DNA of 64,000 nucleotides. It comes from Cylindrotheca closterium (lineage: Eukaryota; Bacillariophyta; Bacillariophyceae; Bacillariales; Bacillariaceae). Position 1 is the first letter of the stretch. Each line of letters opens with the position of its first letter. The DNA is taken from contig CAKOGP040001980.1 in the NCBI GenBank assembly GCA_933822405.4, forward strand, positions 351,198 through 415,197, given 5' to 3'. The position numbers were made by a program, and so were the translations under genes. Under the pieces are notes generated by a model. The model had not been told where the DNA came from, did no database searches, and was given only the letters and a program-made list of their open reading frames with translations. Of this stretch, positions 1 to 28,477 are shown piece by piece.

Positions 1-342
1 CAAAGACTCATCCAGGTGGCTCGCATATGATACACAAACACTGTGGGAAGGACGCCACACTCGAATTCGAAGTCTTCCACAAGAAAGGTATACAACTCCT
101 AAATGGCATCGAACACCTGCGTCTTGGCGAGTTGTCAATGTGGTAATAGGGGCAAAAGTGGGATTGTACCCTTCTTCCACAACACTGTTGTTGCTCATGT
201 AAAAAGACGAATTCTCGAAAACGTGTTTTACCGAGCAATATACGGATGATACACAAGGAACTAAAGAAAAAACTTTGTTGCTCAGAGAATGAATCTATGC
301 TTAATGGGTTCCAGTGCAGTGCACATTCCCAGCACAATATTA

Positions 343-25060: not shown

Positions 25061-28000
25061 TTATGTGATCGTCAGTATCGCCTTCTTGTCTTCTTCAAAG
25101 TCTTCCAGCAGTCCAGCGTTGTGAACGGCCGCAAAGGCTTCCGAGCCATCCTTCCCAGCTAAATCATAGATGGAAGCGAATCCTGCTGGGTGCTCATGTG
25201 CGAACTCAGTGAAGTCATAGACAACCCCATCGATGGCCACCCAGAGATCCTCTTCAGTGTTATGCTTTGCCAGCTCTTCCATGGTCATTTCCGGTAATTC
25301 AACAGTCGCGCCCTTTTGCTCATTCTGTGTTGTGGCCCGTTTCACTAGAGAAGTTCCCTTTTTCACAGGAACCTTTTGACCGACAATGGTACCAAAGACA
25401 GTGCACTCTAGGAGACTGTTTCCTCCAAGACGGTTGTTTCCGTGGACACCGCCAGTAACTTCGCCAGCAGCATGCAATCCTTTGATGATGGAGCCGTCTT
25501 CCTTGATCACATTCCCCTCGGTATCAATCTTGATTCCACCCATACAGTAGTGAAGTACGGGGGTCACTGTTCCCACGTAGAAGGTTTCTTTTGTCAAATC
25601 AGCATCTGGGACTCCTCGGAATGATGTCTTGCCGAATTCATCGTAGCCCTTACTGGCTGCCTGTTGATAACTCCTCATTGAATATGAAAGAGTTGAACTC
25701 CAAACATTCATCTTTTTGGCGAGGGCATCGATACCCTCAACCTTGGTCAAAAGGCCCTTGTGAGAGTAAAGATCGACATGTTTCTTGCCGTCTTCCGCTG
25801 CAGAAGACGAAAGTACCAAGAAAAAGGTTGGGACTTCGTGGTTTTGATTCCAAGTCCCAGTGGAGAGGTAGTGCGAGTCAGCTTCTAGCATTTTGTCTGT
25901 AACATAGGCACGTGTTCCGAGTTCATTGCAGAACCGTTTGCCTTTCTTGTCAAAGAGCATTCCACCGACACCGCGCATCAATTCTGCTGCAAGAACCTTG
26001 GTGGGGTTGGATGGATCTTCAGGATTTACCCATCCAGTTGGATGAATTTGAATCTTGTCCATATCTCTGGTAGCTGCTCCGAGGTCTGTAGCCAACGCGA
26101 TTCCATCTCCGGTGGAAAAGCCACCAGCAGTTGCTGGGAAGGACATCAATTCAGACCGATGCTGATCCAAGTACGATCCCTTGGAGCGATCGGATGCAAA
26201 TCCACCAGTGGCCAGAATGACATTGTCACCTCGAATGTCCTCCGCTGTTCCATCCAAGGTGGACTCACAAGCAACACCAATCACAGTATCACCCTCCATC
26301 AAAAGTTGTTTGACACGAGTGTCGACCATAATCTTGATCTTTCCTTGTTTTTCATAGGCACGGAGCTCCTTTTGCAAGTGATATATTATCTCAGCTCCAG
26401 CCATTCCATTGCTAGGTCGGTGCGTTCGTTTGTGCGAGTGTCCTCCGAGTTGAGCGAGAAGTGACAAGTCGACGTTGGCCCGTTCCTTGAGCCACATGAC
26501 GGCTTGTTCACTCTTGTCCACCAGTGTTCCAATCAAATCCAAATCGGCAACGCTTCCCGCAGATTTGATGGTGTCGTTTCGGAAAGACTCGATCGAGTCA
26601 TTGTACGAGTCACCCTGAGGGCAGCAGCCATTAATGCCAGAACTAGCCTTGTTGGAGTTACCGCCCAACAGGTGTTCCTTCTCCACCATGATGACCGTGC
26701 CGCCACGATCCAAAATATTGAGTGCCGCAGCCATACCCGCCAATCCACTACCCACAACGATTGCATCGGGAGAGGATGCCAATGATGATTCACTACTATC
26801 GTCGGAATCAAGCCCAATGGATGAAATCAAGGCAAGGAACTTTTCTGGATCGCTTGCATAATGTTTTCCCAGCACCAATAATTCGGGATGTTTGGAGAGT
26901 GCCAGCATGACTAGTTCGTTCTCACGAGCCATGCTGATAAGATTTTGTCGTCCAAGATTGGCAATGGCTCCTACTGTTCGATCCATGATATCCAAACTCT
27001 CCACAGGAGGTCCTCCATCCATTGCGTACGCCTGTTGTTCTGCCAATTGTCTATTTTTGCCCTTTTGTTGTTGTTCCGTCTTCCAGTAGTTGGTCGTCAA
27101 CTCTCGGACCTCGACCAAACTCTCGGAAAGTCGCGCCGCAGTATTGATCAATGCCACTACTTCGTTGCGCTCCATCTTGACGAGTTCGGTCGGCATGAAT
27201 AGAATTTTTAGTGCCGTCCCATACCCCATCATTGCCATTTTTCCATGAAGTTTGCATTGTTGACATTGGACACAATCCAGAATACTGGAGACATTGTGGA
27301 AGATTCCCTTGAAGTTTTGTTGAAGATTGATGCCCTGTTGTTGAAACATGAGTGATTCGTCAAATGCGGAAAAGACGCTGGAGCAGGATCTCAGAATGGC
27401 CGTGTCCATGAGTCGTTTCAACAAAATTTTGGCCGCCTCGTCGTCCACGATGTTACGGGATTGGACGTCGTAATCATAGAGGTAAGACGAAGCCTTTTTG
27501 ATGGCTCGGAGCATGACCACGTAGGAGAAATGCATGTTGCGAATGAATTCCGGATGGTTCTGAAACTTTTCCATGAAATATCGTGGATTGGATTCCCAAT
27601 CGGTCCGATTCTTTCGTTTGGAAGGTGGATAGTAGTTCTTGGCAATCGAAATGGTGGTTGACGTGTGGAGTCCACTGAGCAATCGATACAGAACTCGCTC
27701 TTCCAAGCAAGAATCCTGAGTCGTCATGCAATTCTCCTCATAGATGGATTTCCAAATATGTGTCCCATTGTAGCCAGTATTCCGTTCTGGGTTCAATTCC
27801 AAATCAACAATTTTGGTGCCCTTGCCCTCTTGAATACTGCTACACATGTCCATCCAAAAGGTCTCGGGTAGGTTTTCATCGTCGTCACAGGGTGTGCCCC
27901 CTCCTTCCACGACCATGTCGGTTTGTTGCTTCCAATCAAAGGTCTCTCGTTGAGGTTCCGAAGAAAACCCTTGCTCTCCCAAGGTTTGCAAGACACTGGA

Positions 28001-28477
28001 TCCAAAGGGATCATTTCCACCTCCAAAGCCCCCAAAGGCACCCTCGTCGGCCCCTCCTTGGACGGTACAAAGAGGTTCCGCTTCCTCGTCCAATCCCAAT
28101 TCCTCTGCACCTCCATCACATTCAAATTCCTCTTCTTCCTCCTCTTCCATTTCGTCGTCCTCCTTGTCCTTTCCATTCCGCCATTTGCTCAACGGACACT
28201 TGGCGTCCAGGTCGACGACAAAGGTCTTGAAAAAGTTGGTTTGTTGCAACTCACGAAAAATGGCGTTCAATTGGGAATCGTTGGCGCGTTCCAAATCTTC
28301 GCTGCTGCAGTGGGCATCGTCAATGGCACCGGTGGGAAAGAGTTCTTCCAAGACGGAGGCATCCACAGACGGTGAAATGGCGTGGCAAAGAGGCAGGGAT
28401 GCCAGTATCATCATTGACGCCATTATTATTGATGGAATGACAAGCATTAGTGCTTTGGGACGTCGTTGAGCCACCAT
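25061..28477 (-). CDS. ERO1 - soluble fumarate reductase - cytochrome b5 fusion
   Basis: One intronless frame of 1138 residues. Residues 1-33 form a signal peptide ending CHA. Residues ~50-465 are ERO1: CPLSKW, YYPPSKRKNRTDWESNP, FQNHPEFIRNMHFSYVVMLRAI, and the active-site CxxCxxC as C402-VQ-C405-QQ-C408 followed by KLHGK and GYGTALKILF. Acidic inserts (~104-200) with spaced cysteines replace the usual shuttle loop. Residues ~570-1035 are an Osm1/Frd1-type fumarate reductase: FAD-binding VVGSGLAGMAAAL, GGNSNKASSGING, IHPTGWVNPEDPSNP, AELMRGVGGMLFD with the catalytic Arg, and GNNRLGGNSLLECTVFG. Residues ~1060-1136 are a cytochrome b5 domain with heme ligands His1096 (HEHPAG) and His1119 (VHN). 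ERO1 oxidises PDI in the ER and normally passes electrons from its FAD to O2; here they could pass to fumarate. No KDEL-type tail is visible. Confidence 0.93.
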   Translation of the reverse strand: MVAQRRPKALMLVIPSIIMASMMILASLPLCHAISPSVDASVLEELFPTGAIDDAHCSSEDLERANDSQLNAIFRELQQTNFFKTFVVDLDAKCPLSKWRNGKDKEDDEMEEEEEEEFECDGGAEELGLDEEAEPLCTVQGGADEGAFGGFGGGNDPFGSSVLQTLGEQGFSSEPQRETFDWKQQTDMVVEGGGTPCDDDENLPETFWMDMCSSIQEGKGTKIVDLELNPERNTGYNGTHIWKSIYEENCMTTQDSCLEERVLYRLLSGLHTSTTISIAKNYYPPSKRKNRTDWESNPRYFMEKFQNHPEFIRNMHFSYVVMLRAIKKASSYLYDYDVQSRNIVDDEAAKILLKRLMDTAILRSCSSVFSAFDESLMFQQQGINLQQNFKGIFHNVSSILDCVQCQQCKLHGKMAMMGYGTALKILFMPTELVKMERNEVVALINTAARLSESLVEVRELTTNYWKTEQQQKGKNRQLAEQQAYAMDGGPPVESLDIMDRTVGAIANLGRQNLISMARENELVMLALSKHPELLVLGKHYASDPEKFLALISSIGLDSDDSSESSLASSPDAIVVGSGLAGMAAALNILDRGGTVIMVEKEHLLGGNSNKASSGINGCCPQGDSYNDSIESFRNDTIKSAGSVADLDLIGTLVDKSEQAVMWLKERANVDLSLLAQLGGHSHKRTHRPSNGMAGAEIIYHLQKELRAYEKQGKIKIMVDTRVKQLLMEGDTVIGVACESTLDGTAEDIRGDNVILATGGFASDRSKGSYLDQHRSELMSFPATAGGFSTGDGIALATDLGAATRDMDKIQIHPTGWVNPEDPSNPTKVLAAELMRGVGGMLFDKKGKRFCNELGTRAYVTDKMLEADSHYLSTGTWNQNHEVPTFFLVLSSSAAEDGKKHVDLYSHKGLLTKVEGIDALAKKMNVWSSTLSYSMRSYQQAASKGYDEFGKTSFRGVPDADLTKETFYVGTVTPVLHYCMGGIKIDTEGNVIKEDGSIIKGLHAAGEVTGGVHGNNRLGGNSLLECTVFGTIVGQKVPVKKGTSLVKRATTQNEQKGATVELPEMTMEELAKHNTEEDLWVAIDGVVYDFTEFAHEHPAGFASIYDLAGKDGSEAFAAVHNAGLLEDFEEDKKAILTIT

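Follow-up and report, generated by a model that had tools for sequence, protein, structure and literature searches.

The stretch analysed here (the window) comprises 64,000 nucleotides of the diatom Cylindrotheca closterium (contig CAKOGP040001980.1, positions 351,198 to 415,197), and the subject of this report is one of its genes, in which ERO1, a soluble fumarate reductase (FRD) and a cytochrome b5 domain are joined in a single chain. A first-pass annotation of the window had described an unbroken 1138-codon frame with these modules. We found this frame on the minus strand (Table 1), frame 1 of the plus strand being interrupted by many stops across the same interval, and profile searches bore out all three parts. 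Pfam ERO1 (PF04137) matched residues 70–456 and covered profile positions 2–353 of 354 (E = 1.8e-82; 277.7 bits against a cut-off of 27), FAD_binding_2 matched residues 571–1022 (E = 3.9e-77), Cyt-b5 (PF00173) matched residues 1065–1121 (E = 2.2e-18; 66.5 bits against a cut-off of 23.7), and the middle part was also recognized as flavocytochrome c by NCBIfam TIGR01813 (365.2 bits against a curated cut-off of 285.45). Among solved relatives, yeast Osm1 was the best match of the FRD part by sequence (E = 9.3e-79) as well as by fold; the best matches of the ERO1 part were yeast and human Ero1, and its ERO1 fold was confirmed. The CxxCxxC motif lies exactly where the annotation had placed it (402–408), the GxGxxG of the FRD part (576–581) is within one residue of the predicted position 577, and both predicted haem histidines of the b5 domain are present.

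Table 1. Positions of the fusion gene and its parts in the window.
Feature	Window coordinates	Strand	Remarks
Whole fusion gene (P0001)	25061..28477	minus (28477 down to 25061)	1138 codons, ATG to stop, unbroken
Putative signal peptide, residues 1-33	28379..28477	minus	hydrophobic run; cut between LCHA and ISPS set by eye; no Phe at +1
ERO1 domain, residues 49-465	27083..28333	minus	
Acidic shuttle-like arm, C120 to C137	28067..28120	minus	16 residues between the Cys in the window protein
ERO1 active site CxxCxxC, C402/C405/C408	27254..27274	minus	aligned to yeast DCVQCDRC
Helical linker domain between ERO1 and FRD, residues 494-555	26813..26998	minus	
Soluble fumarate reductase (FRD) domain, residues 565-1040	25358..26785	minus	
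Codon of R856	25910..25912	minus	counterpart of catalytic Osm1 R326 / Fcc3 R402
Cytochrome b5 domain, residues 1063-1130	25088..25291	minus	haem ligands H1096 and H1119

When the ERO1 part served as query, with proteins limited to 0.55–1.75 times the length, 397 proteins were returned, of which the best 120 (the window protein and 119 relatives) were examined; counts out of 120 for the fusion refer to this set. Counts out of 77 refer to an alignment (A1) of rows selected from it manually, with a b5 domain and some variety as the criteria. The 43 rows outside A1 were 16 without b5 and 27 others, and key residues were recounted on all 120. ERO1 and FAD_binding_2 occurred together in every row, which contradicts an absence of the fusion from all relatives, one of the refuting conditions named in the first-pass annotation. 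Cyt-b5 was also present in 104 rows. The remaining 16 end inside FRD (15 rows) or just past it (P0097, labelled partial at its source), and for this reason the absence of b5 looks like truncation or unspliced introns. We rejected the possibility that b5 is dispensable, and this unit of the fusion looks obligatory from the distribution of row ends. In eight relatives (P0049, P0054, P0059, P0063, P0071, P0096, P0099 and P0119) the match breaks off at FRD residue 848 or 849, pointing to an intron at this place that they share and the window gene does not have.

All rows that carried a name were diatoms; most rows had none. Names given by label or taxid were Cylindrotheca closterium, C. fusiformis, Bacillariaceae, Nitzschia, Pseudo-nitzschia arenysensis and P. 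heimii, and also Leptocylindrus danicus, Skeletonema marinoi, S. dohrnii, four Thalassiosira, Mediolabrus, Cyclotella meneghiniana and Detonula confervacea. An advantage in dark, anoxic sediments, the rationale first offered for the fusion, is too narrow, as the fusion is also carried by Thalassiosira, Skeletonema and Pseudo-nitzschia, which we take to be planktonic genera. The 76 aligned relatives were 55–91% identical to the window protein, the upper value being that of P0003, a C. closterium transcriptome entry (taxid 2856). Mean identity was 67.8% for ERO1, 72.3% for FRD and 69.8% for b5; the 62-residue helical linker averaged 53.6%, and the loose linkers 15.7% and 24.2%. When the ERO1 parts were placed in a quick tree with yeast as the root, Leptocylindrus and two unnamed relatives separated first (a root position without support). 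Entries of the same architecture came from many separate contigs, independent genomes, metagenome contigs and transcriptomes. Eight rows had MMETSP transcriptome labels (P0003, P0042, P0044, P0045, P0056, P0057, P0065 and P0104), and in these the ERO1 and FRD modules therefore share one transcript. These contigs and transcriptome entries contradict both an assembly join and two separate transcripts, which the annotation had named as grounds for abandoning the fusion. One polypeptide with an ERO1-FRD-b5 order, neither chance nor an assembly join, thus occurs widely within diatoms and is present in their transcriptomes. Outside this search, a yeast Ero1 core query for long ERO1 proteins returned seven proteins including one fusion (P0009), and as it missed the other known fusions it is uninformative on absence. 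A scan of viral contigs gave four pattern matches, none of them confirmed, and among 564 plasmid records with a match none covered 80% of the query, the five matches listed being to the FRD part only.

The catalytic residues of both enzymes were kept. In the ERO1 half, C402, C405 and C408 were found in 120/120 rows, as were T234, Y236, W242, S268 and H271, presumed contacts of flavin adenine dinucleotide (FAD) by correspondence with yeast Ero1; R313, another such contact, was Arg in 118 rows and not Arg in two. The canonical ERO1 shuttle is, as we take it, a mobile Cys pair with C-x4-C spacing. None of the 77 aligned fusions had C-x4-C between residues 94 and 217. Here the diatom fusion is unlike yeast and human Ero1, which have the C-x4-C shuttle and lack the fused FRD-b5; it carries instead a long acidic arm whose C120 and C137 were both Cys in all 120 rows, with 13–28 residues between them in the 77. 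This arm had low per-residue confidence (pLDDT) in the structure model, and its position makes the C120/C137 pair a possible shuttle. The acidic C...DAEPxC motif of the arm was present twice in 38 of the 120 fusions (e.g. P0053, P0064, P0103 and P0104), the named ones being Mediolabrus, Skeletonema, Cyclotella, Detonula and a Thalassiosira; the double arm may represent two shuttles or a regulatory disulfide.

In the FRD half, the six Osm1 residues reported as critical for fumarate (H281, E301, R304, R326, H435 and R477; PMC6242907) correspond to H812, E832, R835, R856, H976 and R1016 of the fusion, each kept in 77/77 aligned rows. Recounting over the rows with b5 gave 104/104 for all but R856 (103/104 and one gap), and the haem ligands H1096 and H1119 were likewise invariant (104/104). 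In truncated rows there were gaps, and position 976 was Ser in two of them and position 1096 Gln in one; no other row contradicted the key counts except at R232 and R313. The first-pass annotation had put the catalytic Arg at about 835; R835 aligns with Osm1 R304 of the proton pathway, and the catalytic counterpart is R856.

A signal peptide had also been proposed at first. A hydrophobic N-terminus was found in 68 of 73 aligned fusions which start with Met; the signal peptide and its cleavage point are putative. Besides, sequon N395-x-S397 ahead of the ERO1 active site was present in 120/120 rows, and the ERO1 part of the fusions averaged 3.4 sequons per protein, with at least one in every one of the 73. 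A KDEL-like C-terminal end was found in 0/77. Because of the hydrophobic N-terminus and the invariant sequon, the fusion is probably located in the lumen of the endoplasmic reticulum (ER). A profile search of the genome for ERO1 found two loci only, the fusion and a standalone ERO1 on contig C562 (L004/L010, C562:451185-452242; orthologs P0127–P0246). The standalone protein is identical to an NCBI protein of C. closterium, in agreement with the source of the window. This protein and its relatives, the best 120 of 418, had CxxCxxC in 120/120 and a C-x4-C motif within the first 200 residues in 115/120. The first FAD Arg was Glu, Gly or Asp and the second Glu, in 113/120 each. The N395 sequon was absent from all 120, and sequons were rare in general (0.39 per protein; none in 79 of 112). 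These proteins often begin with a signal peptide followed by Phe, which we take to be typical of diatom plastid proteins (STAFAPSP in T. pseudonana, for example). By a strict rule such a presequence was found in 49 of 112 standalone ERO1s and 12 of 73 fusions, and by a looser rule in 80 of 102 and 26 of 68 (Fisher P = 1.6e-7, the related sequences not being independent); both rules are crude and of our own devising. Rows not starting with Met (8 of 120 standalone and 4 of 77 fusion rows) were dropped, and the looser test also dropped rows without a hydrophobic N-terminus (10 standalone, 5 fusions). A good share of the fusions passes the loose rule too. Plastid-like presequences and few sequons led us to regard the standalone family as probably plastid-directed, that is, a plastid or periplastid ERO1-like oxidase, and the fusion as probably the only ER-type ERO1 in the genome.

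The genome also contains relatives of the FRD half. L002 (C435:349289-351289, plus strand), which ends at window positions 1-92 and lies 25 kb from the fusion, is an FRD that bears two b5 domains at its C-terminus and lacks ERO1; its N-terminal hydrophobic segment looks by eye like a signal anchor. It is 53% identical to the fusion over 569–1129, and the fused FRD-b5 unit may derive from it or be its sister. The genome has in addition a lone FRD whose N-terminus is hydrophobic. Other disulfide makers appear to exist beside the fusion. One of them is L017 (C201:273155-273655), a VKOR protein whose end looks Trx-like by eye and whose presequence is of plastid type (SAEAFVP), representing a further disulfide-forming system.

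From this arrangement we lean slightly towards the view that the fusion is a single-chain thiol:fumarate oxidoreductase of the ER lumen, in which ERO1 is coupled to fumarate inside the chain. Electrons from reduced PDI would enter at the acidic C120/C137 arm and go by way of C405/C408 to the FAD of ERO1. They would move on to the FRD FAD of the same polypeptide directly or, more likely, via the b5 haem, and fumarate would be reduced to succinate at R856. Every row long enough to include it has the b5 unit, whose haem would sit in the lumen and is the natural candidate for passing single electrons from one flavin to the other. ERO1 so wired would keep forming disulfides when oxygen is scarce, and would release less H2O2 when oxygen is present. 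The ER location, each electron-transfer step and fumarate as the substrate are inferred.

The closest parallels differ in their layout. In bacterial flavocytochrome c3 (Fcc3) an electron-feeding module is fused N-terminally to the FRD domain; the diatom fusion is alike in having an N-terminal feeder on the same kind of FRD domain and a haem on the same chain. The feeder of Fcc3 is the haem domain, whereas the diatom fusion has ERO1 at the N-terminus and b5 at the C-terminus. L002 resembles the fusion in its FRD and C-terminal b5 and in lacking an aromatic flavin pocket, and is unlike it in having no ERO1, two b5 domains and the signal-anchor-like segment. With yeast Osm1, an ER/mitochondrial protein, the FRD part shares sequence, fold and the six catalytic residues, and the proposed chemistry is the published yeast scheme of Ero1 to Osm1 to fumarate (PMC6242907). 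According to that work, Osm1 and Ero1 together use fumarate to oxidise thiols under oxygen depletion, via free FAD or direct contact, the contact is weak (dissociation constant about 150–200 uM), Ero1 was proposed to dock near the site of the Fcc3 haem domain, and direct FAD-to-FAD transfer is called controversial (PMC6242907). The first-pass annotation had named only the free-FAD route; that route is indeed reported, with the weak contact reported as well (PMC6242907). In plants, hypoxia sensitivity was taken as an initial indication that a second acceptor, not yet identified, exists (PMC9516139). The yeast system consists of two separate proteins, and Osm1 has an aromatic pocket and no haem domain; the diatom system, unlike it, is one chain with b5 and without such aromatics, and fusion would remove the weak-affinity problem. 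No paper describing such a single-chain fusion was found among the matches listed, as judged by titles and the beginnings of abstracts, with most subscription journals and preprints outside the search. The chemistry itself is of a known kind.

Several points weigh against intramolecular coupling. In yeast thiol oxidation continued with an Osm1 chimera that failed to bind Ero1, so that contact is not strictly needed there, and docked Ero1 and Osm1 have their FADs more than 20 A apart (PMC6242907). R232, another presumed ERO1 FAD contact, was Arg in 113 of 120 rows and not Arg in seven. Coupling also depends on a supply of fumarate inside the ER. ERO1 is not the only candidate oxidase, since three loci (L012, L013 and L014, on C560, C553 and C112) look QSOX-like, with Trx and Erv1/Alr confirmed by Pfam for L012 only, and may be alternative oxidases of the secretory pathway. 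Finally, the full-length structure model had a predicted template modelling score (pTM) of 0.55, and provides no evidence of a fixed ERO1-FRD arrangement. This last point suits the main rival, which we consider unlikely though the best placed of the alternatives: ERO1 uses O2, FRD-b5 runs alone via b5 from another lumenal donor, and fusion only fixes stoichiometry or keeps FRD in the ER. L002, with FRD and two b5 domains, indicates that FRD-b5 presumably works without a fused ERO1, and a small tree of FRDs joins the fusions to L002 (0.999), the monophyly of the fusions themselves reaching only 0.49. However, the confidently folded helical linker and the complete fusion kept across diatoms suggest more than tethering. 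We also know of no lumenal b5 reductase, and the reduced ERO1 flavin would be the nearest donor.

Two further explanations appear improbable to a similar degree. One is that ERO1 reduces free FAD which FRD then reoxidises, the fusion only raising local concentration. This route is published for Osm1, which oxidises free flavin through a pocket with W295, F297, F362 and other residues (PMC6242907), and pocket residues K76, S78, L298 and Y363 were kept in 77/77 fusions. Against it, no aromatic residue was found at the counterparts of W295, F297 and F362 in any of the 77, the counterpart of N359 was His in 77/77, and P162 faces a gap. The aromatics were absent from the FRD-b5-b5 paralog too, and the own b5-less FRD keeps both Phe, which hints, from three comparison proteins, that b5-bearing FRDs may be fed by a protein partner and not by free flavin. 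The missing aromatic pocket favours intramolecular transfer and leaves free-FAD coupling disfavoured as the main route. As a caution against our own view, these aromatics belong to Osm1 and are not known to be a defining trait of the soluble fumarate reductase family at large, and their absence could be a non-fungal trait, one Osm1 and two own paralogs having been compared. The other explanation is that FRD acts on some other activated alkene, for instance urocanate or an acrylate, and so serves another sink; the conservation of the six fumarate-critical residues, complete but for one gap, and the status of Osm1 as the best match argue against it. An assembly or gene-model artefact joining two genes is practically out of the question and was rejected, as nothing was found in its favour and the fusion recurs in independent genomes, metagenome contigs and transcriptome entries, C. 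closterium P0003 among them.

Coupling inside the chain being our preferred reading, a wider proposal may be put forward tentatively, although we hold it doubtful: in the common ancestor of the sampled lineages, diatoms may have replaced the ER-resident ERO1 by a haem-wired single-chain thiol:fumarate oxidoreductase, electrons passing from ERO1 FAD through b5 haem and FRD FAD to fumarate, with the plastid-directed ERO1-like enzyme as the only other ERO1. On this proposal, oxidative folding independent of oxygen would be the built-in route of the secretory pathway.

The fusion bears on whether Ero1 can give electrons in the ER to an acceptor other than oxygen, and on whether it touches a fumarate reductase in doing so. 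The conservation of such a natural fusion among diatoms gives strong circumstantial evidence, of the Rosetta-stone kind, for a physiological partnership of ERO1 and FRD, and provides a single purifiable chain for measuring the coupling. As diatoms are major primary producers, an oxygen-independent folding oxidase with lower peroxide output would bear on their survival in the dark and at low oxygen. The fusion suggests, without proving it, that diatoms have an inbuilt means of folding their secreted proteins in the absence of oxygen.

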